This document shows positions 30,995 through 63,696 of a stretch of 64,000 bases of DNA, piece after piece (within the stretch, counting starts at the first letter, position 1; every line of letters begins with the position of its first letter). Source of the stretch: Chrysomallon squamiferum (lineage: Eukaryota > Mollusca > Gastropoda > Neomphalida > Peltospiridae); assembly GCA_012295275.1 (NCBI GenBank), contig CM022671.1, forward strand, positions 27,553,822 to 27,617,821. The letters run 5' to 3'. The translations under genes were made by a program, and so were the position numbers. Under the pieces are notes generated by a model. It made no database searches. It was not told the DNA's origin and saw only the letters and a program-made list of their open reading frames with translations.

Positions 30995-31044
<50 letters not shown>

Positions 31045-34000: not shown

Positions 34001-35675
34001 ACAAATATGATTGTTTTCCTGTTTGTATTAGATACATGCTTGCAAAAATGTATTTAACTGCAATAAACAAACGATAGTACCTTCTTCAATATGTTGAGTT
34101 ATCATTACGGGTTCATTTCCCAGCAGCCCTTTTGAGGATCCAGGCTGCAGCATCTCTTTAATCTCTGATGCAGAAAGATACACCACACTTTTTCCTTGCT
34201 GTAACAAAGAAACAACAGAATGTTCACTATAAAAATAAAAATTAACAAACTGCCTGAAAAAAAATACATATATATATATTTAAAAAATAATATAAAGTAA
34301 TAAACACTAATGAATTACAAATAATGAATTAAATGTTATAAAATCAATCTTTTTTCTTCTTTTACTTTTATAAAGTAACTTGACATGATTTTTTCATGGC
34401 ATAAATGAAACAAATTTTCCTTTTATTATACATTTATAATTTATAGGAACAAGGACAATAGAATGATAAGTTTGGCAGCTATGAGTTTTGCAACATAAAG
34501 TTGGCAGGATCTTGCAGCTTTTCCCTTTTCTTCAAACTTCTTTCATTTTCACCACCATAATGACATGGTGCAACATTTTCTTCATCATCTACAAGGCCAT
34601 TTTTTTCAAAAAATACAAGTGCCTTCATCTTGTCACTGATCATTTTGTAAAAATCTTTAGCAGACATCTTAAGGTTTGCCTATTTAATCCATTTCCAATC
34701 CACGCTTGGTCAAATCTGTTGTATTACTTTACCTGCCTGCTATAAACTGACATTTAATTATCCTTTCTTGTCACACTTTTATCTTGTCGAAATTTCCTAG
34801 ATATTTTTTTTGGCTCTAGATCGCCCTTTAAGTTGTAGATCACATGCCAAAGTAGCACAAACAAATAAATATTTGTTTTTATATTCTCTTTTTTAAGTTA
34901 TGTTGATAGTATAATCTGATTATTTAAGCAGTGGAAAATTTTAATTTTCATAAGCTAAAATGTATAGTGTGTAGACTCACGTGATCATCATATGCAACTG
35001 GATTAGACAGAAATAATAGATGCATGATGTGTTCATTTTTGGGAAATCGTATAAGATGTGTACTCAACAGCCTTTTGATGCCTGGTTTCTGGTTAGTTAT
35101 CTGCAAAATAAATAAATAAATAAATAAAATATGATAAAAATAAAATAAAATAAAATAAAATAAAATAATAAAGAACAGTGATATTCAAAACACCTATATG
35201 GCTATTCACACAAAAATCAAAATTCTTGGTTGAAAATAAACATGCATACAGTTTACATTTGTATTTTCAAACTAAGAAATAAATTTGTCTTATATCACAT
35301 CCACCAATTTATCAGTCATAAATATTAAATTTATAATGCTACCATAATGGCCCAAAATAGCAATGTGAAAGCTACTGGATTTTTATTATTTTAGCTAAAG
35401 CATGATGGTAAAAACTTTAATGCAGCCTTTCAGACAAACACTTTTTAATGCATATCAGCTCATGAATCCAGAGTTAATATAAGATAGCGGATACTCACAC
35501 ATAAGTGATATTTAGTGAATTGCTATAATCTACAAAAAGCACATTTACAATATCTTTCCCATCAAATGATTCAAATGGATTAACATAATTATTATAACAC
35601 AATATAAGTTATTTCTGAATCTCCCATATTTTATATGTATTTGTATGTAAAGTTTATTCATTCATTTATTTAAGT

Positions 35676-35719
<44 letters not shown>

Positions 35720-36252
35720 ATAACATCTGAAATAAACATTTTTAAATTACAACAAATTTGGAAAAGATTTCTAACATTAGCTAAAATAAGATTATAACAT
35801 CTTGCCGTTATCATAAATCATGCTTAAATTCTTAGTTTGTCCTCTCATCTCTCGCACACAAGACTTTCAATCCAAAACTTCAGCACAGCATTACGTAATC
35901 ATGGTAATACTTGAATGGGACGTAATTTAGGTTAGAAAATATTTATTTATAAATCGATTATTGATACATTATATGTGTTTATAGTATGTTGACCGTTTAC
36001 CGATTTACTTAAAAAATGCATAATATTAATTAAAGCATTTGAAACTATCATAAACATTTATTTCAACTTTTTAACATGTTTAATTTAAAGCACCTGCTCC
36101 ACTAATTTTTCCGCAATTTGCTTTAGCGTTCCACCATTTGATTTCTGCACTGTCGGAAACCATAATCCACGGTTATCTATATTAACCAGATGAAATCTTG
36201 AATCAATACGTCTGGGAATTACAACACTAACAAATTCCGAACTTTCTGACAT
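26332..36252 (-). CDS. PPP-family serine/threonine phosphatase with N-terminal Nudix-like and EF-hand regions
   Basis: Nineteen in-phase exons give 785 codons. In transcription order: 36252-36094, 35100-34981, 34198-34081, 33883-33773, 33440-33317, 32884-32711, 32498-32415, 32147-32019, 31595-31504, 30932-30780, 30513-30422, 30208-30128, 29762-29630, 28861-28731, 28296-28190, 27874-27772, 27358-27216, 26838-26661, 26457-26332. The C-terminal third is a complete PPP metallophosphatase core: GDIHGN (524-529), GDYVDRG (556-562), RGNHE (587-591), VHGGI (H642), RAHE (H736), and YCG near the end. All metal ligands are present. Residues 256-267 form a canonical EF-hand loop with D256, H258, N260, G261 and E267; a degenerate loop begins at D214. 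This segment resembles the EF-hands of PP2A B'' subunits. Residues 1-130 resemble a Nudix fold that has lost its catalytic box ([20 protein letters not shown] in place of the REUXEE motif); this is inference. The order differs from PPEF/rdgC, whose EF-hands follow the phosphatase. Probably a calcium-regulated phosphatase. Confidence 0.88.
34479..34667 (-). other. Unassigned 62-codon open frame inside phosphatase intron 2
   Basis: An ATG-to-stop frame with balanced codon usage lies on the host strand between exons 2 and 3. It begins [15 protein letters not shown] and is charged, unlike the simple-repeat frames elsewhere. It ends in its own stop, so it is not a cassette exon read through. I do not recognise it. 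It could be a chance frame or a small fragment of a retroposed copy. Confidence 0.2.
35634..35718. repeat. (ATTT)n tract in phosphatase intron 1
   Basis: ATTT tetranucleotide repeat between the first (36252-36094) and second (35100-34981) phosphatase exons. Confidence 0.85.
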
Positions 36253-36863
36253 TTTCAAACAAACATTACAAAAGTAACTTAAAAATCCTTCGCATTCTAA
36301 ATGTACACCAACTGCGGGACTATTTTACGCGATGCACTTTTGTTATCGGTATTATGAAAGTTTTATAAAAATAAATCATTTGTTTACAGAAATATTTCCT
36401 ATTATTTAAATAATTTCTAGTCAAAATAATATTTACAGGGTTACAATGATGTTAATTAGAAATATTTTATTAAAGATATTGCCTTTCGTTAATTATGCCA
36501 TTGAGGTCACTGGGGTTATATTCCAAGTATAGTAATCCACGTGAGGACAGTTTGTAAGGAAGTTTTGACTACCTTTCAATGGTATTTGAAGTAGATAATT
36601 ACAGTAAACTGGATGTTAATGTAAATGAAATACTTTGAAATAGTTTTGTTTGTTTTTAATTTCTTGTTCTAATAAAACCTAAAACAAAACATATAAATAA
36701 AACTCAGTATTTCTGAGTATAGGTGATCCATTGATCGTAGTACTCAGTACTGAGTACTGATTCAGACTTGCTAGACTCAAGCAGCTATTAAGTCTGTTGC
36801 CATTGCTCAGTTGGAACTCATTCATTCGAACTCAGACGCAGGGTATTTACATTTCATGATATA

Positions 36864-41022: not shown

Positions 41023-44000
41023 ATGGCAGCGCCTATGAGTAAAACATGTTTTTCTTGCTTGAAATTTGTTATTAGACCTTCATCACGCCCTTTAAAAGGT
41101 TCATTTCCTGATTTACATTATGAATTAAATTTTTTTCGGAAACTGATAATTCCGAATGTATGACTTCTAAAGACCATGCCATTTACTGAGTTTGTCTTTC
41201 ACTGGCTCGCTAAGCAGTTTGGTATTGTTAAGGTTATAATAATAATGCATTTTTAATTTATTATTGAACTCTGGTTCAAAATCTAACTAATTTAGTTGAT
41301 AAAAAGTTTTAGAATTTACAAATATCATTTCAAGACAACTCTGATGATGTGATGAATAAATACATACTTATCGTAAGCTACAATTTATGTGTAAATTGGA
41401 ATAAATGTCATAATGATAATTTCTCTGACAGTGTGACGCCGTCATTATGACACTCGGAGTGTCACTGAATGTGTTCTGTATGTTACCGTGTGTGTGTGTG
41501 CGTGCAGTCATATCAAGCAATGAAAGACGATAATCAGTTTAATTTGATATGGAGTGATTTTTTAATTTTTTTTTTTGTATTTGCGTTTAAAAAGAGTTTC
41601 GTCGATACCATAAAGTATGGAAGGAGCCAGTACTCCGAGCAATGTACAGAAAAAGAGAGGAAGTTGGTCCAGAACCAGAGAGACACAGATCTGAATGGAT
41701 AAACTGGTATGTACTGTCATGAAACTATTATTAATAATAACTCTTCTCTATTGATTTTATTTTTGGTTTGCTGAACTCCTAAACTGTTCATAATGTTTTT
41801 ATTATTATTATTATTTTTATTTTATTTTTTAATGCATCTTCTAGTGTGTACTTTATTACAAACAACTGCCATTTATTCATGTATATTTGAAAATTTTGAA
41901 GTTATAAAACAAATTACTTGGATATTGGTCTAGTTTCTACTTTTAAAAATTAAAATTCTTTTTTGCAATATAGTCATCAGATATAAATATTATAGTTTGC
42001 CATACAGCTGAATATTTTTTTTCTCTCTCTCTAAAAAAAAAGGAATTATGAAGCAGAGATATTTGCTTTTGGAAAACGACTTGGAGAAGAGTTCAAAGAC
42101 GACACTTTGAGAACAGCCTTTACACACAGGTCCAAACCAAAAATTTAAATTTCTAATCTCAGTTTAAGTTTTAATTCAGTATTTAACTTGTATATTTCTT
42201 TTTAATGTTTCCAAATATTTATAAATTCACATTCAGTCCTTTAACTGTTATAAATTAAAATTTATTTATTAGTAATTGATATTTTTAGTATGTAATTATA
42301 CAGTTACTTTTTTCTCAGTCAGAACATAGGAATTATAAACTTTTGTTTTTACTCACAGATTTTATTGGTATTTCTGACAAATTAAATTTTATTTATGATT
42401 TTTATAAATAAATTGTTTAATATCTTTGTTTTTAATCAAATTTTATTGGAAATTAAAAAAAAAAAAAATACAGATCTTATATTGAAAAAGAAGAGAAAAG
42501 AAGAACTGAGTTAGGAATTGATCTTAATGCCGCACCTCTAGGTCTTACTGATAATGAAGATCTGGCACAAACAGGTTTCTGCAGAATACAATATAAATAC
42601 AGCTTTTCACTTGAATAATATATTTTTATTTGAGTTTTTTATTTTTGTGATGATTGATTATCATTGATGCCTCCTGTAATAAGTTAAACAACCAAAAAAT
42701 AAAACAGTTGATTTTTATCTGTTTTAATTAAACTAATACAAAAAAATTTAATATTTGTTTTGTTCTCTCTATAAATATTTGAAACTAAATGAATAAGGAA
42801 GGACTTGTGAATTATTAGGTCATAGTCTTCAACCTATAGATAAAAATAAAGTTTTTGAATATTTGGACACATATTTTTTTTTAAACAATATTATTAATAA
42901 ACTCATGTCATTAAATCAGTTAGTATGTCATTGATAATTATAAAGTTCTACTGTAATGTAAGGTACACTTCACCAAAGATAAACTTCAAAATGTTTGCAG
43001 TTTATGACAGGTTGACATAGTAATGTGTTTTTGTTTAGGTGGAGAAATAACAGAACAATATACAAAAGCCTTTCTAAGACATGTGTATCCCAGAATGTTT
43101 GAAGAGGGTATCTGGTGAGTCAAACTGATTTTTGTTTTAACCCCCACCAAAAAACCCACAATGTGTGTGAGTGTGTCTGTGCATGTAACAAAAATTCTGT
43201 TTTAAAAACAAGTGAACAATAAAATTAATATTATATTAATAGGGACAAATATATGCGATAAATAACAAAATATGTTGGAGGAAATTATAGCAAGTTGCTT
43301 GTAAACATATTTTTTATATATATATTTTTTTTAAATTTCATTTCAGTGGCATTAGCGATTACCTCACTACAGATGAAATGTTAGCTGATATTGCAAGAGA
43401 TATTGGAGCAGCAGATCTTATGTTATGTGCTGTAAGTAGAAAGTAAAATGTTTTTGTTTGAATAATATTCTTTCCAGTTCTATTATCATTTTTATATATT
43501 TTTAAAAAAAATTTAAAAAAAAGAAAATGTATACAGTATCCTGAAATTTATTATTCATTTTTTTAAATGGTTGAATATTATTTATTGTTAATTGATTTTT
43601 TTTCTCTTTTTTTTTCTTTCAGGATTTTCCACCTGAGACTAAAACTTTGAGTAAAACATTTAAAGCCATTGTGGGTGCAATTTATGAGGATCAGGTAGTG
43701 ATTTGATTTGATTACATAATTAAAAATTTTTCCACTTCACTGCACATTTTCTTTCTGCATTGCACTGTATACATTTTTATTTGTAATTATTCAAAACAGT
43801 TCAAGGCTATTATTTAACATCCTTTAATTTACAGATTCTTTCTTTTTTTCATTTTTTTTAAAAATTTATGTTCACAGCTAATTCATTTCAGAAACCACTT
43901 TTAAAAGTTTAAAACATTTATTTTTATTATTGAAAGGGAAAAACAAAAGCAGAAACATTTGTGAGGGATTTTGTTCTGCCACAGCTGATAGGCAAAGATA

Positions 44001-45075
44001 TCAATGAAATGTGGAATGTAATTAATCCCATGGGATTATTGACAGCAGTGCTGAAAAAACAGGGACAAGAACCACCAGAACCAAGGTACACTACTCTTCC
44101 AGTGATAACTATTAAATTTCCCAGTCCATTTATTAATTTATTTTATTATTATTAATTCTAATAAGGTAACCACCAGAAGCAAAGTATATTACTCTTCCAG
44201 TAATAACTGTTCGAAATCCCAGTCCAATTATCATTATTCAGCTTGTAGTTTTGACACTGATTTTACATTTTACCTCCCATCCCAATGATTCATAACAAAA
44301 GTCATTATATGTGCTTTTCTCTATGCATGTAGGTATATAGAAGATTCATTGATACTAATCTCTCTACTATAATTATACACAACAATAAAATGTATGTGTT
44401 AGATTTTTTTTTTTTTATATGTAATGTTTTAATTATTTTGGCCATTGTTACTTGTAGATTACTTTGGTCCTCAGCTTCTGGGACTATGTTGTCTCTTTAC
44501 TATGTCGGTATCTATAGTAACAAACAACTGATTGCCAAATGTAAGTGAAAAAGAAAATACAATTTTTACCTTGAATATTAAAACATCCAGTGCTGTAAAC
44601 ATCACATTAATGATACTTATCTAGAATAATTGAGAAATTCTATTATAATATTGTTATTTGATTATTGGAAAATGACTTTATTTTTTTTATTATTTTTTTT
44701 TAATCCTATCCTAAAATTTCAAAAATGAAAAGAAATAAACCATTTCAGAATTATTCATTATATATTCCTGTTTCAAAAGAAGAAGAAAATGTCTTGGTAA
44801 ATGTTCAAAATCTTATGTTTAATTTATACAAATAAGAGATAAAATGGCCCACTGAAGTAATTACAATTTGCATTTCAGCACCGGGTGAGACCCTTCTTAT
44901 TGCAGAAGAAATGGCTGCTCGCAATGCTTTAAAGAAAATTATGGGAACTGCAGATTATAGAGCTCCGTTACCACTGGGAAAGATGGCAGAAAACATAAAA
45001 GTGGACTATAACAAAAAGAATATCAGTATAGATGAAATAACTGGTGGTCAAGAGAAGCTTTTACACTCAAACTAA
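41023..45075 (+). CDS. MRPL44: Mitochondrial large ribosomal subunit protein mL44 (RNase III-like)
   Basis: Ten in-phase exons: 41023-41098, 41595-41706, 42043-42129, 42474-42574, 43039-43114, 43347-43431, 43623-43694, 43937-44085, 44458-44540, 44879-45075, giving 345 aa (human 332). After a mitochondrial leader, HRSEWINWNYEAEIFAFGKR matches the human family start of the RNase III-like fold (about 64-230). The FVRDFVLPQLIGKDINEMW and NPMGLL segments are diagnostic, and a double-stranded-RNA-binding fold (about 233-305) ends in PGETLLIAEEMAARNALKK. Like other mL44 proteins it lacks the acidic catalytic signature of active RNase III, so the role is structural in the mitoribosome. The exon 1/2 junction is the least certain (acceptor at 41594 has a weak pyrimidine tract). 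Confidence 0.93.
44070..44235 (+). repeat. Tandem duplication of an MRPL44 exon end and splice donor
   Basis: The segment ACCACCAGAACCAAGGTACA at 44071 (end of exon 8 plus donor) and about 40 bp of following intron recur at 44169, 98 bp downstream, with several differences. In the second copy the donor is degraded (AAAGTATAT), so the first copy is taken as the real exon end. Confidence 0.8.
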
Positions 45076-46723
45076 AAATGTGAAAGATGAAAAGACAGAA
45101 ATGAAAATACAGCAGAGACTTTTTCTAACAAATATTTAAAAAGACTTTATACTCAAAATTTCATCTTTCATTCTAACAATAATTGGATACCTACACAATG
45201 TTGTATGATTGTAGTGCTATTTGTGTGATCAGTGTAAATATTAAAGATAGTCAAAAATATTATATCGTCTTTATATTTTTCACTGTCATAAACAGTAACA
45301 AATTTAATTTTTGATGTCACTATGATTCAAATAACATTTGATTGGTGTAAATATTAAAGAACATCATATATATTTGTACATTAGTATATTCTTAATAAAG
45401 ATACTCATTTGCATATTGGAAAAAACAAAATATTTTGTTAATGTTTCTGAAATTCACACGAGATGAGCATAATTTTAACATTACAAAACAATATATTTTA
45501 TCCCTTGATTATCAGTAAAAATAAATAATAAATAATAATACAAAAATAAAAACATTGATGATATTACAAAGGACAAAAAGAAATTGAAAACCAAAAAATA
45601 TAAACAATAAATTTTTATTTCCTTTTGTATTATTTTATATAATAAGAAATTTAACAAAGTAATAACAGTGAAAAAAGTGCTGTAAAAAACATTTTTCATT
45701 GTAAAAAGGAAAAAAGGTTACCTTATCTGCTTACAGTGTCAACAAGACAAAATATTCAGGTTTTTGTATAAAAAACTAAAAATAAGCATAACTATTAACA
45801 AAATTCTCATATCTTAAGGCACTTCCATGTAAATTCATCTAATACAGTTAGTAGAAACAAAGTGCTGGTGTAACTAATTTATAAATATAAAAATGTTGTT
45901 AATGGGGGTGAATTTTAACATACAAAATAATGAAATTTTGATATCTTTTTATTCCAAAATTTTGATCTATAAAAATATAAAATGTATAAAAAACAAACAA
46001 ACAACAATAAAGGTATGAAATGATATTTTGTGATAGTCTTCATGGATTAAATATTTCTATCAAAACTATATTTTTGTTAACTGTAATTATTTTTTATTAC
46101 ATAAATATATCATTTTACAAAGACATTTGTATTTTTACAAGATCTTTTAGATAATGTCTCTGTTTAAAAAATCTATTAAACTTGTTGGTCAAACTAATTG
46201 TGATTATTTATTATAAAGAAAGCAGAATATGTTTTAAATAAATAGATATTTGGTTTTTAATCTTCCAACAATGTATGGTGTAATTATAATAGCATTCTTC
46301 TAAACAGAAACTGCAATTAATTTTCTTTAGCAGGAAGCAATTTTATTATGTTTTGTTTTTTAGATTCAGTCTTTTTATATCTTATCTGTGCCTAATATAA
46401 TAGAAATAATAATAATAACAATATATTTTATTTTAGTCATGGATATTTTATGGCAAGATAAATAGAAAATTGATGTAATATGTATATTTCTATTTCAAAA
46501 CATTTGGTCTACTCTAAATAATTTGGTTGAAAAAACAAAATTCTTAGGTGAAATTTAAATATTTTTCAGCATATTAATTTTACACCCATAAAAAGTACCA
46601 AAAGTTCATATTAATACTGGCATGTCAATGAAGATCTTTTGTTATAATTATCAGTCAAAATTCATGAAAACAAAGCAAGTTAAGACAAGAGGACCGAATT
46701 GATAGTGACCTACATAATTGGCT
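45076..46723. other. Convergent 3' flanks of MRPL44 and GUSB
   Basis: About 1.65 kb of AT-rich sequence between the two stop codons, holding both 3' UTRs. A canonical AATAAA at 45394-45399 is a good polyadenylation candidate for MRPL44. No coding signal was seen; the minus-strand frame at 45481-45699 is a low-complexity Phe/Leu/Ile frame. Confidence 0.6.
45394..45399 (+). terminator. Candidate polyadenylation signal of MRPL44
   Basis: AATAAA about 320 bp after the MRPL44 stop codon, in a plausible 3' UTR position. Confidence 0.45.
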
Positions 46724-49700
46724 TTATAATTCATTTATACTGTGAAAATAAAGTCTAGTGTCTTGAATGGGACGACTGGTGTTAAACATTCTGTGGTATC
46801 TGTCTTGAAGCAGGAAAGCAGCATGTTTAGGCTGTCGCTGCCGTGTAAGAATTCCTTTCTTATTTCCAACAACTCTTGTGATTCCTGGTTTATAGAAAAC
46901 AAAACTTGTGTATTAAAATATTTTTCCTATGTCCACATTTTGTTATCATATAGGCCTGACATCTTCACACTCTTTCTAAAATTTGTATGTTTCACCTCAC
47001 ATGAGTTAAACAGAATTTAAGAAATATTTAATTTTTTTCCAGCTAAAACTGAAATGAATTGCTCTAAACCCCATGACCTGTTTTATAAATAAATGTCTGC
47101 ATATTTACCTTGAGCAGTCATAAAGTCAGCAAAATTCCAAACCATTTCACCAACAAAGTATTTTTTTTTTCACATCAAATACTTTGTGATATTCTCTCAT
47201 GAACTCTACCTGGAATTCCTCAGTAAACACAAAAGAAGGATCCTGAGAGAAAAAGAGAATAAAAATCATTACCAGTTTTCATTAGTTAGTAAAGAAAAAA
47301 ACACACAGGTAGAGAATCCATTATCTGAAATACTTCAGACTGGAAGTGTCGGATTTCTCAATATTTCAGATTTTGGAATATAAGGAGATAGCATGAAAAT
47401 AGAATCTAAATATAAATATGAATTTTATTTACTTTTCATATACAGCTTAAACAGATAGTCTCCAAGATTTTTTATATAATATTTTTTATAATTTTGTGCA
47501 GAAAATAAAGTTTGTATAATGCAAAAAAGTTAAAAAACTTTAACATACCACTACTTCTGCTGCTCAAAAAATGACGTAATATGAGTCATGCAGTGCATTA
47601 TTAAACTATACGGTGGAGGAAGGAGGGTGTTTATTAATTTACTCCATCAAGTTTTCTAAATAATATTATTTAGAATACTTACTCTGTGTAATCCTGGAAT
47701 TGTGTCTGCACCATATTCAGTCAACATGATTGGTTTGTGGAATTTCTGATACCAAGCATCAAGATCATTTCCAAGCTGTAGTTGTATAAGTTCAGTATGG
47801 CTGACGTCTCTGTACCAGGCATAGTAACGATTCAAACAAATAATGTCCACAAACTGAACCTTATAAAATAATATAGACATAATTAATCATGAAAGATATT
47901 GTTCAGAAAACTTTTAACAATAACATCAAATTCAATACCTTTTAAAAATAATAAAGTTATTCAGAAAGAAGAAATTTATTTAATCTATAAAACACATCAT
48001 GTTATTTTTTTTTAACAGTTAGCAACAAGGGATCTTTCACATGCAAGAAAATACACAGTCTTTGGTAAAACAGTGGCAGTTTCTTGTTCAAATAAATAAA
48101 AACTGATTAATAACATGTTATGCTATACATGTTTCTTAGAAAGAAGTTTAAGTTTCTGATAGAGATACTATTATTATATAAAAATTATAACATAATAGCT
48201 TTACATTTCCTACAATCAGATCATTTTACAACTCACTGCATGATCATTATTATATTCCTGATTACACACAAATGTCACTGGTCGAGTTGGGTCAAGTTTT
48301 CTAGTATGTTCTATAACAGATCTGCAAAAACAAAAATAATATATAGATAAATTTATATTTTTAATCATATGTCTCTCTAATCAATGCATCCAGACTCAAC
48401 TTTTGTACAGAGATGTATATGCAGCATACAGCTTTTTAAATTTAACATAAAACTTCTATCCCCTCATCTTGTTTTCTTTACTGTCTCTTTCCTCTGTTAT
48501 TTGTGTATGTCTGTTAAATACATATTCAAATCTGAGTTGTGTTTTCTGTTTTGTGTACCTGAAATAATGTTCAGATATTTTTTTGCTTGTTGCTGGTTCA
48601 TTTGCTGTTGACCACATAATAACAGAAGGTCTGTTTTTATCTCTTCTCACCAGTTCACCCATTACTTCAAGATGGTGAGCCAAAGACACAGGACTAAAAT
48701 TGTCATCCCTGAAATAAAAATAAAAATAAAAATAAAAATAAAAATAAAAATAAAAATAAAAATAAAAATAAAAATAAAAATAAAAATAAAAATAAAAATA
48801 AAAATAAATGAAATAAAATAATAACAATACTGATAATTAAATTTAAAATATTTATCATTTAGCTTAAATCACTTTTTTATTATAATAATTTCTGAAATAA
48901 CATATTTACATAAGGCCATAATAGTAACTGTAAATACACATGAAATAAAAAAATGTATGTTATGTATCAGATTTTTTTGGATAAAACAAACCAAAGATTA
49001 AATAAACATGATTTTCTGTATTTTTATATAATGTTTTTTTTTTTTCAAATTAATAATTCATTAAAGATCTGAACTTAACACTCTTGATGTTAAAATACTT
49101 TAATCTTTTAATAAAATTTCAGTATCTGTAAATGTGTTATTATAAATCAATGGATCCATTATATAATTTGTTCTATTGTAAACTCTTAATGAACCATAAA
49201 AAATTTAGACTTTAACTCTCTTATGACCAGCTATCATGCTGAAAATAACCATTAAGATGTAATTTTATAACATCAACTGACTTTACAATTCCAACACCAG
49301 GACTCTCGTCTATTATTGCAATCCCCTGTTGATCAGCTTGATCAAGAATCTCTTCAGCATACGGGTAGTGAGATGTGCGAAAACAGTTGGCACCCAGCCA
49401 TTTTAACATGTTGAAGTCCTTGGCAATCAGTGCATAGTCCAATCCTTTTCCACGAATCTGAATAAATAAATAAATAAATAAATGAAAATTGGGAGAAACC
49501 TTTTTATAAATATATTTATATTTCAGATTATAATAGATTAATATTCAATATATATAATATTAATATTAAAACTCTGAACAAAATATTGAATATACAGCTT
49601 TTTGAACTCATTAAATGTATCAAATTCTTTTATTAATTTGGCATCATTATAGATTGCAGAAGGTAACAAACTGAACGACTATTCCAAAGGAAGATTATTA

Positions 49701-52548
49701 AATGCAGATCTAGTTTTATTACATTTCCTATTTGCCATACTGAAAAAGGAAAACAAAAAAAAATAGTTTCATTTATCCAAAGACCCAAAGAAAAACAGAA
49801 AACAATAAATCAGAAATAGATTTACATCAGAATCTTCATGCTTAGCAACTCCATGACAGTAGAATGGTTGATTATTGATCAGTAGTTTAGTGCTTGTCAC
49901 TTTGATTGTCCTGATTCCAAATGGCAAACGATATATATCCTGACCTTCTGTCGATGTCATAGTTACCTTCATTACAAAATAATACATTTCAAACTGACAA
50001 TGATAACAACAAACTAATAATCTCAGGATAATTATTCAATACATTTTATTTAGCATATTATTAAAATAACATGAAATGATATGAAATATACTTTTTTATT
50101 GAAATTATATTCACCTGATCTGAAATTCTTACCACTTTTATGAATGTACAATTATAAAAACAAAAAAAAATAAAAATAAATGTAACAATAAAAATGACAG
50201 CTAAATGAAGTACTAAAAATGTGAATAACTATTAAATAAATTGCTAAAACAAATACAATAAATATGCAGGAACAATAAAAATATTAATAATTACATCATT
50301 AACAAAAATAAAAAATATAAGAAAGTAACTGCAACAATAAAAGAATAACTTATATAACTTTAAGGTGTAAAAATACGCAGGTGTAGAATTTTTTTTTTTT
50401 TTTTTTTTTTTTTTTAGATAATATATATGTTTTTAAATTGTTATCTATGATGAAATCAGGTACCTTAAGTGTGTAGAGATATGCAGGTGAAGTAATATTC
50501 ATGTTTTTTTAAAATAAAAATGTTTTTAAATTATTATCTATGGTGAAATCAAGTACCTTCAGTGTATAGAGATATGCAGGTGAAGTAATGTTCATGGTGT
50601 AAGGATACCAAAACACAGCACTGTTCACTTCAATTGTTCCTGTCATCTGATTACTACTTCCAACAGTATGACCTTGTTTGTCAGTGACTTCCACTTTAAC
50701 AGCTAGTGGACTAGTTACATTTCCTTGTGCTATCACAACATAATGTACTATACCTTGTTTAATAAATAAATAAATAAACAAATTAAAAAGAAAAGAAAAA
50801 AGAAAGATGACTGATATCAGACATGGTTACTAAATAAAAATTAAAAACATGAAATTAAAAAAAGATAACTAATATTAGATATAATAACAAGTTTATTTTA
50901 TGTTTTGGAACATGAAATAAATCAAAACTGCTTAATTTCTTAATTTAAATTCTGCATTTTAATAAAATAAATAGTTTCCTTCAGTTTTTCAACAAGTAAA
51001 ATCAATTGATTATGTAATCTATTATTATGAATCTATTACTGGTTTTATAATAGGTGAAATATTTTTTTACCAAATCAGTTCAATGTAAGATGCTAACTGG
51101 TGACTGAAAGTAGTATTAACTTCACTTTATTCTTTAAGATTGTCTGGGAGTATTTTATTATTAAATAAAATATAAATTAAATGTAATGTAGATGGAGTGC
51201 ATATCAAGAAGTACCACTACAGGCTGTCTGTTAAACTGTTAAATATTACCTCCTAAATTTTTACGGTGTTAAAAGTATAAAACTATGAAGTAAAATGAAC
51301 CTGTGGAGAAATGTGCAGATTCCTAATTACAATTTTTTTATATAAATTGTTGCTTTATTTGTTTCACATTCTTGGAAATACACAAAATACATTCAGGTAT
51401 TTTGTCTTAACAGGCAAATGTCAGTATAATTTCTAGATATCACACCAGCAATATTAATGATCTGGTAGTTATAGTAGTATTTAGTCTGCTGATACCTTTA
51501 GAACCTTGGATGTCTGTGGTAACTGTTATGTCATCAATATAAGTCCAAGGAGTGGTATACAGTCGAACATGTCGATGCAATCCAGCATAATTGAAAAAAT
51601 CCATCTGAAGATTTTGAGTAAAGTAACCTGGAGGATATCTGTAATAATACAATAAATAAAAAAACAAATGGTTTAAAAATACACTGGAAATATTCCATAC
51701 AGTTTACAAATAAATAAGTAACATGAATTATTTGATAAACTGATATAGTGTTATACACATATACATCAATGAACATATTATATTTTTTTGGACAATGGTA
51801 TCCAAAGAAACTTTTTGTCATGTGATCATTGGTTAGCAGCAAGATAACTTTTACACAGATGCTCTTGTAGGAAAAATATAAACCACAGTGTTTAGAGAAA
51901 TTATGAGTTTTGGCAACACAGAGAAAATGTTGGAATGAGAAACAGTGTAAATGTAAATATTGCTTTATGTGAGATAGGTCATTCAATATTTCATTCCTCT
52001 GACAACTATCTAAACTACTGTCTCCTCTCATCTTTAATTTAAAAACGTTTAGGTGTAGATATATATATATATATATATACATGTATGTACGTTTGTCTGT
52101 ATGTATGTATGCAAAGAAATTACGTAAGTTGTATTGTGTTTAACTTTTAAAATACATTTATACTTTTTTCTGTCACTCTGGTATGTGATGGTTCCTGGGG
52201 GCAAAGTGTGAGGAGTCAGTGTATTGTTAACAGCTACTGTGACACGATTCACACCTGTAAAGTCCAGAAACTCGTTAACAACACCTTCAAATGGCAAGTG
52301 TCCACCATCATGAGTCATTACCAATTTGGAGTTAATCCACTAAATTAAAGAAGAAATAATAAATAAATAAATAAATAAATAAATAAATTAATTAATTAAT
52401 TAGTTAATTAAAAAATCAAGATTATAGTCAGCTATTAACTGAAAACTATTGCTTTTACAAAATTTTTAAAATGCGTAATTATATATGTACATTGAAAAGA
52501 TTTACTTCTTTACTTGGGGGAAGAGCTGTATTCCTACCTTGAATTCAG

Positions 52549-52603
<55 letters not shown>

Positions 52604-53101
52604 CCTACCAAATGTCATAGCAAAATAATCTGAATGGAAAATTATTCATCATGTTTCCATTTAGAAGTAAATATAAAAATCTGCTGTCTAAATTGAAAGT
52701 TAATAGTAAAAGCATATAATAAAATTAAATAAATTAATTAATTAATATTAAATTGTTTTAAATTACAATCTTACCACAACTGCATAATAATGTGCACTTT
52801 CAAATCTGAGAACAACCCGTCGATTCCTCCACTGACTGTCAACATAAAACTGCCGATCATACCAAGCCCAGCCTACAAAATCTCTGATAGCTTTTTCCTG
52901 AGTTATGTCATTGTAGCTGGATGGTACTGCCATTGGAATCACGGGTCCTGTCTGAAAAATGTTAGATCATACTGCTTAAATATAGACTCTGAGATTTTAT
53001 AATATTCAACTATTGAAACTACCTTTACCATTTATATTGTTATTATTTTGTATATTAACAACTTTTTATTTCTTGCTCAATGAGTATAACCAAAGTAATT
53101 A

Positions 53102-53146
<45 letters not shown>

Positions 53147-53577
53147 TTATTTTTTATTAATTTACCCCACCCCGTTAATTATTATTTTAAAACTGTTTGT
53201 TTAAATATAAATTCTTAATACATACGGTTTTTATTATTTGTATCTGTGATTATGTAGTATGTGTTTAAGTGTGTTTTACGGCAAAATGAACATGCTAATA
53301 ATTTATAATTAAACATTATTTTGATTTGTATTTTATGACACACTTGTCAAAGCCGGTTCCGCACCTTAGACAAGGGGGCGTCGTACCATTTTTGTTCAAA
53401 ACTAGCATTTCGATTTGATGACTGATCTATTTTAAAATTCCACATCCCATCGAGACTTTGTATATTTCTTGTTTCTGATTCACGTGGATATAACATTCCT
53501 TTTAAACATGAACAGGAATAAAACGAAAGCTGAATTAACAATAAAACCGACAACATTTTTATGACTCTAGCCGACAT
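46724..53577 (-). CDS. GUSB: Beta-glucuronidase (GH2), with a +1 frameshift in the penultimate exon
   Basis: Twelve exons in transcription order: 53577-53365, 52951-52775, 52339-52164, 51638-51496, 50753-50557, 49966-49826, 49457-49282, 48708-48559, 48321-48237, 47859-47683, 47242-47109, 46884-46724. They encode about 642 aa (human 651). A signal peptide (about 1-24) is followed by the sugar-binding domain, the Ig-like domain and the TIM barrel. Catalytic acid/base is the Glu of ANEP (about E445) and the nucleophile the Glu of LTEYGAD (about E534), close to human E451 and E540. [17 protein letters not shown] and the end [18 protein letters not shown] are family hallmarks. The lysosomal enzyme removes terminal glucuronate from glycosaminoglycans. 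In exon 11 an A10 run (plus strand T, 47161-47170) holds one base too many: nine would keep the frame through [13 protein letters not shown]. This may be an assembly error or a real lesion. Confidence 0.92.
47161..47170 (-). other. GUSB: Frame-breaking A10 homopolymer in GUSB exon 11
   Basis: Ten T on the plus strand read as ten A on the gene's strand, directly between the codons for FDV and YFVGE. In the given sequence the frame meets a stop six codons after FDV (three Lys, then ILCW, TGA context). Nine or twelve A restore the conserved reading frame. No splice site nearby avoids the run. Confidence 0.85.
48709..48808. repeat. (AAAATA)n repeat abutting a GUSB splice acceptor
   Basis: About sixteen AAAATA units on the plus strand read as TTTTTA on the gene's strand and run directly into the TTTATTTCAG acceptor of exon 8 (high end 48708). 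The repeat therefore forms the whole polypyrimidine tract region. Confidence 0.9.
50430..50605 (-). repeat. Tandem duplication of the GUSB exon 5 end and donor
   Basis: The 3' end of exon 5 with its donor and about 35 bp of intron (plus 50523-50600) recurs downstream on the gene's strand at about 50430-50505, 92 bp away, with a few substitutions. The second copy also keeps a GTACC-type donor (GGTACCTTAAGTGTGTAGAG on the plus strand), but is separated from the exon body, so the first donor at 50556 is preferred. Confidence 0.75.
52549..52602. repeat. (AAT)n microsatellite, GUSB intron
   Basis: AAT trinucleotide tract between the exons at 52339-52164 and 52951-52775. A similar tract lies at about 53102-53146 in the next intron. 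Confidence 0.9.
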
Positions 53578-53708
53578 ATTTCTGTCATGTGATTACAATA
53601 AAAAGGTTATTTTTAAAATTTCCGGAATAATTTGTATTTTTTCGTAACATTCCGTTGGATCAAGATAGTGAATAGGTTTGAGGGCAATACATTCTTGTTA
53701 TTTAGAAG

Positions 53709-56448: not shown

Positions 56449-59400
56449 TTTTTTTTTTTTGTGGGTCTATAATGTTTTTAAATTTGAAACATTGAAATAA
56501 TATTTAATTATGAAATCCCTTAATTTCCATAAAAACATAAAAAATGAAGCTGTTCTACTTTTTTAATCATTTCTAATTTTCAAATTTGACATTTTTATTA
56601 ATTATCAATATAAAAATCAGTGAAAGATTAAATAATTAAATCATACACTATACAGCTGATATTTCAACTTACTTCTCTGCTGCACCTTTTTATCATCAGA
56701 TTTTCTGAAAAGAAAATGTATATTAATACAAAACAGTAAGCTACAGGTTATTAATGATTTGTGCATGCATTTATAAGACACTGTCCTTGTACATCTAGAT
56801 GGAAAGGATTATTCATTGTTTTTGTTCTATCAAATTTTAATTTTTCAATTTTCTCCAGTTTGTTCCTTTAAAAAATTAAACTTAAATATTATTATAATTT
56901 TAAAAAAATCCAAGAAATGTTACAAATTAATTTTCATTTGAGGAATTTTAATAAGCTAACATTGAAAAAAATACATATAGTGACACCAAATAAATTCTTC
57001 AGAATTAGTAAACACAAGTAATACACATGTCACTACTTTTTGAATACACCAACCTTGCAGAACTTGGCACTTTCTGTACTTTAGTCTGAAAAAGATAATT
57101 AGGAAAATTTCAGTGCTGCATTATGATACATAAATTTTCTAGTATTATTCTTTTGAATATAAACAATATTTGTTATGTCTGCTTTGAATTTATTGTATTA
57201 ACAATATCAATACATTTTATACTGCATGATTTTTAATTACTTCTTTTCAGTGCTCAGAAATTATTAATTCACATACAACCATTTTTGTTCATTTACTACA
57301 ATTACTAACTTCAAGTATAACATATCGACATTTTACTGATATGTGCAATAATTAATCTAAACCATTCACTTACAGATTCTGTTTGCACGTCTGCTGCTTT
57401 GGCTTTTTTCCTAGGCACCTTTTCTACTTCAACATGTTTCAATTCTTTCTGTGAAGAAACACTTTTTCTAGGCGTTTTGACATTTCCTCTTTTTTGTGGT
57501 GAAGTTCTTTTTCTTGAAACATCTTTTTCATCACATTCCTTTGATTCTGGCTTCTTTTCATCTATGACGAGAGTTTTTGGTAAAGCACCCTCACCATGAG
57601 CTTGTGCAATTGATTTTTTTCTTGTTGATCGTTTTAGTTTGCTTGGTGACTCTTGTCTCCGAGGTGAAACATCCGTTTTTTCTAAATGTTTATTTTCTAT
57701 CTGAGAAGACTTTACAGCACTGCAAACTGGACTGCAGGGTTTAATTCTGGAAGAATCCAGGCTTTTGGATGGAGATAATAATTGACCTTCCAAGTCCAAA
57801 GAATCAGGATTATCAAATGAACTCAACTCCATTTCTGCTGCACCTTTGACAGAAGTTTTTATTTTCTGTACAGCTGAATCAGGGTTGACAGATGATGAAA
57901 CTAAGTTGTCAGATGAAGTATTATGTTTGTGCTTACATGGACTAAGTTTGTTATTTTCTAATGAAATAGTTTGCTGTTTGCAAGTAGAATTTTGTAACAA
58001 TTCAGGAGTTTCATTTGATGTGGTTGACGTTTCCAAATTATTACCTTCTGAAGAAGTAACCTCCATATTCTGTTTTTTAGATGTTAGAGAAATCTCATTA
58101 TCCCTTTCATTTAATTCTCTTTCTGAATTCAAAGACTTCTTCCTTGCAGTTTCACTTTCTGAAACATTTTCATTTTGTTTCCTTTTTCTTGGAGAAACTT
58201 TTGGCAATCTTTCTGATAAAAGAGCATTTCCAGAGGCAGATTCTGCACTGAAACCCTCAACTTCTTCCTGTGACAAATCTAAATGTTTAACACATTTAAT
58301 CTTGGTGACTTCAGGTTTCTCAGACACATTCTGAACTGGAGACGAAAGCTTTGAGATTAAAGGTGAGAATGAAATTTTACCTTCCTCATCTGAACTGATG
58401 TCAAAGGTAACTGAAAATGTTTCCAATGGTCTTTTTTCAAACGGAGAACTTCACTGGTGTTTGTGTTTTCTTTGTTGGAGAAGTTTTAACCAGTTTAGTT
58501 TTAGATGGAGAAGATTTAACCAAATTAAGTTTAGATGGAGAAGATTTAACCAAATTAAGTTTAGATGGAGAAACAGGTTGAGAACTGTTGGACTGAGATT
58601 GTACTGGTGCATCTACATCTATAACTTGAACACTTTCATCATCAGAAATATATCCGACATCTTTTTCAGCCACGTCAACGATGACATCTCTGCCGTTTGT
58701 TCTTTGGTTAGAAACATCCAGCATTACCTGCTAATAAAGAAAATAAATACCCGGTTTTTTAATTTATACATTACATTATTTTTAACCTTCCTGACAGTCT
58801 TACACCAACAAAGGTATTTTCACCCAATATATTATTTACCAAAATTTTACTGACATCTATTTGCTACTGTATGACCAAATAATTTTAATGAACACTAGAA
58901 TGATTTCAGTCCATCAGCATTATACCAGTCAGTCATGCTTTGAATCAGACTGGGGCGGTAATTAATCATCACTTTGGATATGACTGAAGAGTACATAAAG
59001 AACCAAATAATATATGGATGCACATTACTAGGAATTGTCAGAACAAAATTTTCCACAAATGCTGATGTTACATAGAATTACCAGAGGCTTTTTCACTTGA
59101 TTTAAAAAAAACATACAAAAACAAATCTGAATCAATGTTGTATATTAATGTTACTGCATGAACAATTTCTAAAGTCTGGACAAATACCATTTCAATTTTT
59201 TTATTTTATTTAAGATTATTCTTTTGTCTCACCTTTTCCTCTTCCAAATGCTTTTTTCTTTGTGAATGTTCTGTAGGATTTTCAATTTTTTCTATAGTGT
59301 CTGTATTGAAATGTTTCCTAACTGGAGAAATATTTTTGAAACCTTCACCAGATTTAGTTGATTTTCTTCTTGATTCATTTTTTATTTCTTTCACACATGC

Positions 59401-62400
59401 TTTCTCTTTTGTTATGGATTCTAAATCTATTTCATATACTTCTACATCAGAATTTTCTGCACCTTTTTCAAACACTGCTTCAATTTTCCCTGCCTGATCT
59501 TCTGTCAGCTGCAAAACAGTAAGTGTGCATTTTAAAATGTAGAGTAAATGCATTATCACAGCATACTTAACAAAACAGTTCTTAGATCAAGTTCTGGAAA
59601 TTCTGTTTCACAACATTTTAAAGAAAATAATGCATTTAGTAATGATAGTAAATGTCCATCAGAAAAGACCAGTCATTCATGAAATAAATCAGACTGGGGC
59701 GGTATATAATCATCAAAGGACAAATTATTAAATTCTGACATTCTCATTATTAGAAAAGAGTTCTGTGTACATCACATTTATTAAAGATTAAAGCAGGAAA
59801 AAAATTAATGTTTAAATTAAGAATAAGTATCATGTCATTCAAAAAATTAGTTGTATATGAAACCTATACTCAGGCAAAATATACAAGACATGAACACATT
59901 ATGAAGTAAAGGGATTTTAGAAGCAAAAGAATTTTAAATTTTGAAACTTGTTTTTTTTTCAAATGTGAATTTTTTAAGAAACCAACCATATTATCTTTCT
60001 TATTGATGCATTTTATTTTCTGATCTGTATCTTCAGTCTTTATCTATTGCAAAAGAAAAAACATTATTTCCTGTTACTGATAAATAAAAATTGTTATACA
60101 CACACACACTCTTTATTAGATAGAAGTTATTGATTACCTGAACAGTCCTAATTTTGAAACATTTATTTTTCTTTATACAGAGGGCTAAAAATTATCATTA
60201 TCATATTACTATTACAAAATGTTAAAAAAACAAATCTGGATATGCTATCAAATTAAAAATTACAAAAAACTGAATAAAAAATCAGACAAAACAGAAAAAA
60301 TACCCCCCAAAACATCCAAGAAATCTTATCAAAAGCATTTATTTTATACCTTTAATAACAATTGGTAATAATGTAGGATTTGAAGATTTAATTTCAGAAT
60401 AATAAATGTATTAATCAGTCCTTCAGACTAGAACCAATCAATCATGAATAAAATCAGACTGGGGCGGTATTGAATCATCATTCAGGACAAACAAAATTAC
60501 AAATAAAATTCAATATCTGCCACTGAAATAAAAATGACCGATAACAAAAGATAATGGAAGAGGTAACAAAACAAAAGAGAATATAAATAAAATGCCAAAA
60601 ATTATTTTACTTACCTCAGACTGTTTATTTTGGACAATTCCTTGTTTATTTTTCTGTGGTGACTGTTTAGATTTGGTAACATTGTCTTCTTCATCTGTTA
60701 AAATGACAATATCCGATTCGTCAGAACTTCTGTCATTATCACAGAGTTCATCAGTCAGGTCTAAAACTCTCACATCTTCAACAATCTCATCAACCACCGT
60801 TTCCTGCAATGAATTAAATATATACACTCATAACAATTACTTTAATTAGGATGTGAACCGAGTTGAACAACTCCACAACTATAAATAAAAAAACACACAC
60901 ACACACAAAAAATGGATATATACACTGTTATTTGTAGGATTGGACCTGAAGCTATATAAAATTGACATTCTTTTCACCATTTCCTCAGTAACTGAATGTT
61001 ACATATTTGGTCATTTATTTATTCTTGTTAAAAATTATCATCAAGGAAAATTTTCTAATATATGCAGACCCAAAATTATAATTACTAGATCCATTACCTT
61101 GTGTGAAAGTTGTATCATTTATTTTTTAATCTAAGATTAGACTGGTTTTATGATTCAGAAATGTACCAGTCAGTCATGATTTAAATCAGACTGGGGCGGT
61201 AATAATCATCATGAAAATACAATCTAACTTATTTTAATGGTGTTCTAAATATCTTCTGTAATAGTTTTATTTATACCAATATTTTACAGCAGAATTCAAT
61301 CTGGAAACATAATCTACTACATTAGTTTATCCTGATCATTATTTGTCAAACACCAATTCAGCTTGAATTTTAGTTCGTTTTTTACTATGTGTAACCAGTG
61401 CAACGGTACACATCAGACATTATTTTAATATATGGCTGGTTTGGACAGGTCATAATTGGATTATCTGATTTTCTAATCATTATACAAGAATAAACCTAAC
61501 AATAAAAATAAAAAAAATAAATAAAAGAGAAATCACAATAAAACAATTTTCTAAGTTATCTCTCAGTGTATAGATTTATCAATAGTGCTAAATTTGTTAA
61601 TGTCAGAGATATAGTGATTTATTTAAATATGATTAATGTTCTTCAGATCAATACCAGTCAGTCATAAATAAAATCAGACTGGGGCGGTTAAATCTAACAT
61701 CACTAGAACATCACTTCACATTATTACAAACAAGTAGATAAAGTGAATCAGACAATTAAAGAACTATTTCATTAAACACTCCTTTTTACATTGAAAAGCA
61801 ACAGATTTTGTACTTAGGTATCACTAAACATTCATTAGTAACTCATCTTTCTATAATATCTATTATAACAAAAAAAAAAAAAATGTTTTAATAATAAATT
61901 AAAAAATACATACAATTAATAAATAACACAAATAAAAAATATTAAAATCTGAAGACTGTTTTAAAATTTTTTAAAAATTTTTAAAAAATAATACGATAAA
62001 TATATATACATACTAAGAATACACTTGCTAAACCCATTTGCCCAAAATTCAAGGGCAATTGCAGACCCAGTTTATAATTACTAGATCCATTACCTTTTGT
62101 GTGTAAGGTGTATCATTTACATTTTTATCAACTGGCTTTATAATTCAGAAATGTACCAGTCAGTCATGATTAAACTCAGACTGGGGCGGTAATAATCATC
62201 ATGAGAATCAAATCTAACTCAATTTAATGATATTCTAAATGATTTCTGTAATTACTTTTATTTACACTGATATTTTATAGGAGAATTCAGTCAGGAAAAA
62301 TAATCTACTACATAAGTTTATTCTGATCATTTTATTATTTGTCAAGCATCAACTGTCAAAATACAATATTAACTACTTCAATAAATAAATTCATAACCAA

Positions 62401-63696
62401 TTTCAGTTTGGATTTTAGTTCCAATTTTACTATTTGTAAGAACTGCAATTTGTAAGAAGCATAAACCTAACAAAACATTTAAAAATCTAGATCCATTTTT
62501 ATCAAAAAATAAAATAAAATAAATACAACAATTTTCTATGTTATCTCTCAATATTTAGATTTATCAATAATACCAAATTTGTTAATGTCAAAGATAGAGG
62601 GATTTATTTAAATATTATTAATGTGTCCTTCAGATCAATACCAGTCAGTCATAGATAAAATCAGACTGGGGCGGTTAAATCTAACATCACAAGAACATGA
62701 ATTCACATTGTTATGATAAAGTGAATCGCACAATTAAAGAATCACTTCATTAATAATTCATCTTCCTATAATGTTTATAATGGCAAATAAATAATGTTTT
62801 TCTTTTGCAGACTGCTATATTTATTTATATATTAAAAAAAAAAAATGTTTTATGACTGCTAATATGACAAATATATACAGATATTAAGAATACACTTACT
62901 AAACCCATTTGTCCAAAATTCAAAGGTAATTACATGAATTTCTAATTATGTATCAGTTACTAGTACCATCAGCCAAATAAAATTTTAACAAACAGGTTAT
63001 TTCTTTTTAAAAATCAAAATATATAATCTGCATTGGTCACCAGTATCTTTATAAAGTCCCATCTTCTCTGATCCTTAGATGCAGCTAAAATATTTTAAAA
63101 TATCAATATTTTTAAACTTAAGTCAATTTTATTAAAAAGAGTCCTTCAGTACATTACCAGTAAGTCATGAATAAATCAGACTGGGGCGGCATACATGTAT
63201 CATCATGTAGGACTCCAAATTATACTCTGTTATACTATAGCTTTAAAAAGAAAAAATTCTGTATATTCTTATAATGAAATTATGTTATGGTGTAATAAAA
63301 TCACTTTTTTTTAACCTTTTTATTGTTTTGAGTCATCTAAACATAAACACAGATATGTAAACCTTGTATAAATACCTGTTTGTTCTTTTCTTCACCTTTT
63401 CTGTCAACACAAAAAATGACATCTTCAATGTTTTCTCCAACACTGGGCTGGAATTATAAAAAAATGAAAAAAAAATTCAAAATAAAACAATTAAGATTCA
63501 CAGAGGAGTTGATAAAACATGGAAAATTTGATGATAAATTTTTTTAGTTCAAATAACCAAAAGAAAGTGTGGAAGAATTTAAAATTATAAATACCTCTAC
63601 ATTAACATATGACGTAACATCTGGAGTCTGTAATGATGTACCATCTTCATCTTTATTTGTATGTGAAATGGCAGAAGAAAGATCAACAGTTAAAAC
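56225..63696 (-). CDS. Disordered Ser-Pro/Lys-rich protein (partial, 5' end off window); SNORD31 host gene
   Basis: Nine exons recognised, transcription order: 63696-63595, 63447-63376, 60803-60615, 60043-59987, 59508-59233, 58727-57374, 57085-57054, 56704-56673, 56265-56225 (stop). The first five and the long one are all phase 0; about 717 codons are visible and the start lies beyond 64000. The protein is highly charged, with acidic tracts, many Ser-Pro sites and basic clusters (SPRKRK, RKKSIAQ, SLRSRR), as expected of a nuclear, intrinsically disordered chromatin-type protein. A ten-residue unit SPSKLNLVKS is repeated about three times (58480-58570). I do not recognise the family. Near 58430-58450 the long exon changes frame: one extra base, possibly in a TTT run, separates KKTQTPVKFS from EKRPLETFSV. 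Its introns contain eight U31-type snoRNAs on the same strand, so the gene is a protein-coding snoRNA host. Confidence 0.7.
58430..58452 (-). other. +1 frameshift in the long exon of the snoRNA host
   Basis: The upstream frame ends FSV-stop at 58437, while the downstream frame is open from at least 58426 and beyond. Codon composition and Ser-Pro style are identical on both sides, and exon length is 1354 (one more than a multiple of three), whereas both boundaries are phase 0. No usable GT-AG intron restores the frame. Removing one base between 58437 and 58452 does. Confidence 0.75.
58475..58570 (-). repeat. 30-bp coding tandem repeat in the host exon
   Basis: The unit encoding SPSKLNLVKS is repeated twice exactly and once with changes (SPSKTKLVKT), with a further partial SPTKK copy. 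Each unit holds a Ser-Pro next to lysines, a proline-directed kinase type of site. Confidence 0.9.
58910..58978 (-). ncRNA. SNORD31: C/D-box snoRNA, U31/SNORD31 family, copy 1 (A)
   Basis: On the minus strand: box C GTGATGA (58972-58966), guide ACCGCCCCAGT, box D' CTGA (58948-58945), box C' TGACTGA (58935-58929), box D CTGA (58917-58914). A terminal stem UCCA/UGGA closes it. It lies in the intron between 59233 and 58727. The guide pairs with ACTGGGGCGGT of the large-subunit rRNA P-loop; the fifth base upstream of D' selects the second G of GGGG. Confidence 0.9.
59653..59722 (-). ncRNA. SNORD31: C/D-box snoRNA, U31/SNORD31 family, copy 2 (B)
   Basis: Box C is the variant TTGATGA (59716-59710). 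The guide ATACCGCCCCAGT and D' CTGA are intact, C' is TGAATGA (one change), and D is CTGA at 59662-59659. Terminal stem UGUCC/GGACA. Located in the intron between exons 59987 and 59508. Confidence 0.88.
60418..60488 (-). ncRNA. SNORD31: C/D-box snoRNA, U31/SNORD31 family, copy 3 (C)
   Basis: Box C ATGATGA (60481-60475), guide ATACCGCCCCAGT, D' CTGA, C' variant TGATTGA, D CTGA (60426-60423). Terminal stem GUCCU/AGGAC, with CTGA also next to the stem on the 5' side. In the intron between exons 60615 and 60043. Confidence 0.9.
61150..61216 (-). ncRNA. SNORD31: C/D-box snoRNA, U31/SNORD31 family, copy 4 (D)
   Basis: Box C ATGATGA (61212-61206), guide TTACCGCCCCAGT, D' CTGA, C' TGACTGA, D CTGA (61158-61155). 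The terminal stem is weak (U/A rich), so ends are approximate. Part of the duplicated unit, paired with copy 6. Confidence 0.88.
61637..61710 (-). ncRNA. SNORD31: C/D-box snoRNA, U31/SNORD31 family, copy 5 (E)
   Basis: Box C is the variant GTGATGT (61703-61697), with guide TAACCGCCCCAGT, D' CTGA, C' TGACTGA and D CTGA (61646-61643). Terminal stem UGUUCU/AGAACA. Paired with copy 7 in the duplication. Confidence 0.87.
62139..62209 (-). ncRNA. SNORD31: C/D-box snoRNA, U31/SNORD31 family, copy 6 (F)
   Basis: Box C ATGATGA (62202-62196), guide TTACCGCCCCAGT, D' CTGA, C' TGACTGA, D CTGA (62148-62145). Closely similar to copy 4 over the snoRNA and flanks. Ends approximate because the stem is weak. 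Confidence 0.88.
62624..62697 (-). ncRNA. SNORD31: C/D-box snoRNA, U31/SNORD31 family, copy 7 (G)
   Basis: Box C variant GTGATGT (62690-62684), guide TAACCGCCCCAGT, D' CTGA, C' TGACTGA, D CTGA (62633-62630). Terminal stem UGUUCU/AGGACA keeps pairing through a U-G. Closely similar to copy 5. Confidence 0.87.
63139..63215 (-). ncRNA. SNORD31: C/D-box snoRNA, U31/SNORD31 family, copy 8 (H)
   Basis: Box C ATGATGA (63206-63200), D' CTGA, C' variant TGACTTA, D CTGA (63149-63146). The best terminal stem of the set: GAGUCCU/AGGACUC, seven pairs. The guide reads TGCCGCCCCAGT, so it differs from the others at the outer end (G in place of A), where it would form a G-U pair with the rRNA U. Confidence 0.9.

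Follow-up and report, generated by a model that had tools for sequence, protein, structure and literature searches.

Why would a single protein-coding gene carry the same small nucleolar RNA (snoRNA) many times over in its introns? The question is raised by a window of 64,000 nucleotides from the gastropod Chrysomallon squamiferum (C7:27553822-27617821, in an assembly of 404.6 Mb and 22 contigs), where an initial annotation had described eight U31/SNORD31-type C/D snoRNAs sharing an invariant guide. The copies are very probably U31/SNORD31 genes, nine in number, that were duplicated inside the gene and would be spliced out to guide methylation of the P-loop of the large-subunit ribosomal RNA (rRNA), the many copies perhaps serving dosage.

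The nine copies and their place in one gene

The feature by which the copies were first found is a 14-base core consisting of guide and box D'. The core, TCAGACTGGGGCGG, has eight exact matches on the plus strand of the window (58945-63189), and no further match appears when up to three mismatches are allowed. The eight exact copies claimed by the initial annotation are thus real; with 0.18 matches expected and none of 100 shuffles reaching eight, chance repeats were rejected as their origin.

The Rfam search that the annotation had suggested was run with the SNORD31 model (RF00089, cut-off 40 bits). It recognises seven of the window copies with 40.2-51.2 bits, and beyond these seven no match in the window reaches a cut-off; the identification as U31 holds, and the eighth, s8, scores below the cut-off. 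Genome-wide, 61 candidates were scored with the same model and matches were kept at E up to 1. As in all our genome-wide searches for C/D families, only the best candidates are scored, so that every family count is a lower bound. At least 13 SNORD31 matches were found, nine of them in the host gene (eight over the cut-off) and four elsewhere, all below it; this lower-bound search gave no match over the cut-off outside the host gene. The ninth copy, s9, lies 2 kb outside the window, which raises the total from the eight originally counted. The model finds these nine independently of the core. When guide and D' were searched genome-wide as the 15-mer ACCGCCCCAGTCTGA with at most one mismatch, 23 places were returned, among them eight exact ones, all in the host gene, and s8 with one mismatch; the 13 model matches include none of the 14 scattered one-mismatch places. 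Judged by these searches, all U31 genes found in the assembly lie in a single gene. Two weak SNORD31 matches are seen on C4 (26.1 bits) and C15 (24.6 bits).

The host gene is encoded on the minus strand and was modelled with 16 coding exons, introns ending in GT and AG, and a reading frame that runs through 604 codons without a stop, starting at C7:27623094 and running downwards. All nine copies are intronic with respect to the modelled exons and lie on the sense strand of the host, which agrees with the original description of intronic copies in one protein-coding gene. Introns 6, 14, 15 and 16 hold one copy each, s4 to s8 are all found in intron 13, and introns 1-5 and 7-12 contain none.

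On the host strand all nine copies display box C, guide, D' (CTGA), C' region and box D in the order previously proposed. Box C is UGAUGA in seven of them. The C' box deviates from the usual box consensus in all copies, and so does that of the Rfam SNORD31 consensus. The copies had also been said usually to have a closing stem, which is a fair statement but not a general one. Proximal stems are better than in shuffled flanks for s2 (p 0.008), s3 (p 0.041) and s8 (0 of 2000); those of s1 (4 bp, p 0.13) and s7 (6 bp, p 0.09) are present but short of significance, and the stem of s5, TGTTCT/AGAACA, was identified by eye, the script having picked the wrong box C. The statement does not extend to s4, s6 and s9, which are discussed below.

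Self-complementarity is seen between the U31 guide and the C' region (GACUG...GGUA, similar to the rRNA target). RNAalifold predicts 12 pairs, none of them with a compensatory change and three of them broken in one or two copies. Compared with mononucleotide shuffles the loop reaches p values from 0 of 1000 to 0.061 in the nine copies and 0.017 in the Rfam consensus. This self-pairing may be a built-in target mimic shielding the guide.

The ribosomal target and the constraint on the guide

The guide had been proposed to pair with the P-loop and to select its second G by the D+5 rule. Using a 77-nt piece of 28S as query, the 28S ribosomal DNA (rDNA) of the genome itself was located at five places on C13, all of which carry GACTGGGGCGGTA while three lie inside Rfam LSU matches. 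With this P-loop the guide forms 12 contiguous pairs in seven copies (including one G-U pair in s8) and 11 in s5 and s7, and D'+5 is the second G of GGGG in 9/9 copies, so both parts of the proposal were borne out. The predicted site of 2'-O-methylation is the second G of ACUGGGGCGGU in the 28S P-loop, a residue that we take to be equivalent to E. coli Gm2251. Human SNORD31/U31, yeast snR67 and Arabidopsis U31 have the same guide, the same use of D' and an LSU target in the P-loop, and serve the equivalent site (Gm4166, Gm2616 and Gm2610, respectively; PMC3511168); they differ from the present case, where nine copies reside in one protein-coding gene. Upstream of box D no second guide with convincing complementarity to the rDNA examined was found, the best candidate having 12 pairs including G-U pairs. 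The rDNA is fragmented in the assembly: at C13:3175000-3214999 the P-loop part of 28S recurs every ~670 nt, perhaps as a collapsed or degenerate array.

For identity counts between lineages, s4, s6 and s9 were treated as one lineage and s5 and s7 as another. Guide and D', that is the 14-base core, are identical at 448/448 positions. The C' region follows with 402/448 and boxes C and D with 268/320, compared to 328/598 (55%) at other inner positions and 401/1015 (40%) in the aligned flanks. The copies have diverged and the guide has been retained; a functionless repeat was rejected on the same grounds, the flanks having drifted while the guide was kept.

The coordinates of these features are collected in the table. 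For the host protein Pfam gives nothing above cut-off (a single match has E 0.18; two open reading frames of the gene gave none), PDB gives no match, and of 8000 scored homologue candidates none is at E 0.001 or better. Exon 14 encodes DIVILTDEED, presumably a SUMO-interacting-like motif. The frame switch in the large 3' exon, at 58440-58480, could be due to a short intron, to a mistake in the assembly or to a genuine frameshift. A divergently oriented gene adjoining the start of the host is, by eye, presumably related to SETD1. Among the other neighbours, 46700-53600 resembles GUSB (Glyco_hydro_2_C, 44.4 bits), while 43291-45072 is MRPL44-like and 30400-36300 USP32-like by eye.

Table. U31 copies, parts of the host gene model and duplicated units; positions refer to the window unless a contig is given.
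Feature	Position	Strand	Remarks
U31 s1	58909..58979	-	intron 16; SNORD31 51.2 bits; guide pairing 12 nt
U31 s2	59652..59723	-	intron 15; SNORD31 47.7 bits; stem TGTCC/GGACA
U31 s3	60418..60488	-	intron 14; SNORD31 44.0 bits; stem GTCCT/AGGAC
U31 s4	61149..61218	-	intron 13; SNORD31 50.4 bits
U31 s5	61637..61710	-	intron 13; SNORD31 44.8 bits; box C UGAUGU; guide pairing 11 nt
U31 s6	62139..62208	-	intron 13; SNORD31 48.1 bits
U31 s7	62626..62697	-	intron 13; SNORD31 40.2 bits (barely over 40); box C UGAUGU
U31 s8	63142..63212	-	intron 13; SNORD31 33.4 bits; snoU31b match spans 63124-63210; 8-bp stem
U31 s9	C7:27619868-27619938	host sense strand	intron 6; SNORD31 49.1 bits; 2 kb outside window
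Host exon 12	63595..63696	-	open frame across modelled splice sites
Host exon 13	63376..63447	-	host gene model
Host intron 13	60804..63375	-	2,572 nt; five U31 copies, s4-s8
Host exon 14	60615..60803	-	host gene model
Host exon 15	59987..60043	-	host gene model
Host exon 16	59233..59508	-	host gene model
Large downstream host coding region	57314..58730	-	two frames, change near 58440
Duplication unit 1 (s4, s5)	61063..61775	-	blastn blocks against 62060-62753
Duplication unit 2 (s6, s7)	62060..62753	-	blastn blocks against 61063-61775

Origin of the copies and competing explanations

The clearest trace of how the copies arose is a tandem duplication of ~990 bp, in which s4 and s5 correspond to s6 and s7 through two blocks that are 82.8% and 84.4% identical (blastn). 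The ninth copy is 98% identical to s4 and s6 over 61-62 nt, ending at the snoRNA limits, with 61/65 and 60/65 identical positions over a wider body; its flanks are weakly similar to theirs (p 0.03-0.11). That s9 was retroposed from a mature snoRNA was considered in view of where the match ends, yet because of the weak flank similarity s9 is equally likely to be a diverged segmental copy.

We suggest that the nine copies are transcribed within the introns of one protein-coding precursor messenger RNA, and that splicing and trimming would give one C/D small nucleolar ribonucleoprotein per copy. Its D' guide would pair with the 28S P-loop, ACUGGGGCGGUA, and direct 2'-O-methylation of the second G. 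Repeated duplication inside the gene, of which the two-snoRNA duplication is the clearest event, has very probably produced the copies, and selection has retained the guide and D' along with most of the C' region. Their number would be explained most simply by dosage, a modestly expressed host with many copies being able to supply enough snoRNA; U14, snoR38 and U27 have been multiplied in the same way at other loci. The transcription, processing and methylation assumed here, and dosage as the cause, are predictions from sequence.

Several observations weigh against this proposal. The usual animal route is one snoRNA per intron (PMC11028025), an organisation that is violated by the five copies in the modelled intron 13, which fit poorly with it. 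If exonucleases acted alone, the outermost copies would stay linked through the spacer, as a small nucleolar long non-coding RNA (sno-lncRNA), so that cleavage between copies or hidden exons would be needed to release five U31 copies, or nine U14 copies, from one intron. In the four single-copy introns the snoRNA lies 143-489 nt from the 3' splice site, unlike the short spacing in mammals. Among the copies themselves, s8 stays below the cut-offs of both SNORD31 and snoU31b (36.2 against 37 bits), the last base of box C is altered in s5 and s7, and the closing stem is weak or absent in s4 (p 0.76), s6 (p 0.89) and s9 (p 0.59). As terminal stems are of importance to snoRNA expression in vertebrates (PMC10234308), some of the copies may be silent. 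Finally, the 14 scattered one-mismatch places of ACCGCCCCAGTCTGA compare with three for a reversed control pattern, and in the controls, 14 prokaryote ones for each family, SNORD31 matches at E up to 1 were found in 7/14 (over the cut-off in 0/14), so that matches near E 1 carry no meaning.

These defects could instead point to neutral duplication that has left functional and dying copies side by side, a few of them working and the rest recent or decaying. The low score of s8, the altered box C of s5 and s7 and the lack of a clear proximal stem in s4, s6 and s9 would be expected then, and only about a third of annotated vertebrate snoRNAs are expressed (PMC10234308). We consider such a mixture unlikely, since neutral copies this old would not keep 14/14 bases of guide and D' in 9/9 copies beside a body at 55% and flanks at 40% identity. 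The core was the means by which the copies were discovered, which qualifies the 14/14 count; the independent SNORD31 search gives the same nine. Gene conversion among the copies, rather than selection on each, could also have made the guides identical, and s9, separated from s4 and s6 by seven exons and 98% identical to them between weakly similar flanks, would fit this. Conversion would take adjacent bases along, however, whereas the identity between the other lineages stays within guide, D' and C' region and is 55% beside them, which makes it an improbable source of the pattern. Most improbable is a mainly cis-acting role, for example by forming structures in the introns that control splicing of the host or by providing the ends of a sno-lncRNA from intron 13: five copies do share that intron, two snoRNAs in one intron can give sno-lncRNAs (PMC11028025) and snoRNAs are able to pair with host introns (PMC10324135), but such a role needs no match to rRNA, and the conserved bases are the rRNA-matching ones.

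Similar arrays at other loci and in other animals

The initial annotation regarded an eight-fold expansion of one guide as unusual. The expansion is real, but it is not specific to U31. Six C/D families were searched genome-wide, and four of them form single-locus arrays, U31 with at least 9 copies, U14 with 10, snoR38 with 8 and U27 with 6; since U31 and U27 entered the set on account of having been noticed earlier, a fair tally is two out of four. At least ten SNORD14 (U14) matches all fall within 6.3 kb (C8:25069038-25075350), eight of them over the cut-off, while controls gave matches in 5/14 and none over it. The snoR38 matches, at least eight, are all found within 8.5 kb (C1:44085147-44093677) with four over the cut-off (controls 4/14, none over). 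All SNORD27 matches, at least six, lie within 23 kb (C7:32426277-32449717); none exceeds the cut-off of 52, the best having 51.6 bits, and controls gave matches in 4/14 with none over. SNORD34 (U34) has one match over the cut-off and one weak (controls 0/14), and SNORD24 (U24) one over and two weak (controls 7/14, none over), and neither forms an array. That no multiplication is seen for U34 and U24 also speaks against our proposal, in that the need for dosage is not general.

The arrays resemble that of U31 in their setting. Nine of the ten U14 copies, whose mean column identity is 89%, lie between two exons ~5.2 kb apart in a PRRC2-like gene, gene and exons being assigned by eye. Cryptic coding exons between these nine were rejected in a limited scan, in which each of the seven candidates (GTRAGT donors, at least 60 nt) overlaps one U14 copy. 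An ankyrin-repeat gene carries the snoR38 copies in its introns, with three of the eight between two neighbouring exons (exons by eye), and the guide core TCCCTGTC is unchanged in 8/8. Two SNORD31 matches below the cut-off pointed to a HUWE1-like locus (by eye) at C7:32.42-32.45 Mb, whose introns contain SNORD27-like copies together with a second C/D RNA that occurs five times and has the guide GTCAAGCAC[A/G]TGT. The U27 core GACAAGCATAT is unchanged in 6/6, D' being CTTA in four. The sixth SNORD27-like copy of the 23-kb stretch has no exon model tied to it. The guide of the second C/D RNA pairs over 13 nt, including G-U pairs and with the base adjoining D' unpaired, with TCACGTGCTTGGCT of the genome's own 28S, located ~450 nt downstream of the P-loop.

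The annotation knew of no description of such an array. In openly licensed PMC literature no U31 array of this kind was found, nor homogeneous arrays of 6-10 copies of an rRNA guide in coding genes of non-mammalian animals, but multiplication of C/D snoRNAs within one host has been described. Human U31 resides in the non-coding SNHG1, and several U31 copies are among the snoRNAs of Drosophila Uhg1; the hosts of SNORD113-116 are non-coding, and most of these snoRNAs have no rRNA target. Uhg1 carries 16 snoRNAs in one host, and five rRNA positions are reported to be targeted by Uhg1 snoRNAs only, which suggests recurring guides; Uhg1 is a non-coding host with one snoRNA per intron (PMC4430873), while the U31 host described here codes for protein, yielded a single guide and has five copies together in intron 13. 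In humans, the expressed members all share one host gene in 59.5% of the C/D families that have at least two of them, and SNORD58 in RPL17 and SNORD12 are, like the present arrays, examples of cis duplication within a host, but with three members instead of 6 to 10 and several per intron (PMC8178906). Invertebrate cis duplication is known from snoRNAs in sponge ribosomal-protein genes, where the copies lie in neighbouring introns and no large arrays appear in the portions of the paper covered (PMC3412847, citing nematodes and platypus for the same process); the tunicate Didemnum vexillum has a maximum of three SNORD14 loci (PMC5006418). SNORD113/114 and SNORD115/116 are large single-family C/D tandem arrays too, but they are eutherian-specific and lie in imprinted domains, unlike the ancient rRNA guides in coding genes found here (PMC11028025, which also reviews clusters of intronic snoRNAs). 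Same-host multiplication of C/D snoRNAs is thus already known; what is new is the scale, the introns with several copies and the recurrence.

Tentatively, this lineage may keep U31, U14, snoR38 and U27 as homogeneous, single-locus intronic arrays of 6-10 copies, often with many in one intron. If this is true, processing other than one lariat per snoRNA would be needed, by endonucleolytic release between copies or through intron remnants capped by snoRNAs, and copy number would provide the dosage in place of a strong host promoter. Four arrays of ancient rRNA guides, each at a single locus of one non-mammalian genome and with its guide kept, make it possible to ask in a natural setting whether copy number determines snoRNA supply, and by what route multiple C/D snoRNAs exit one intron.

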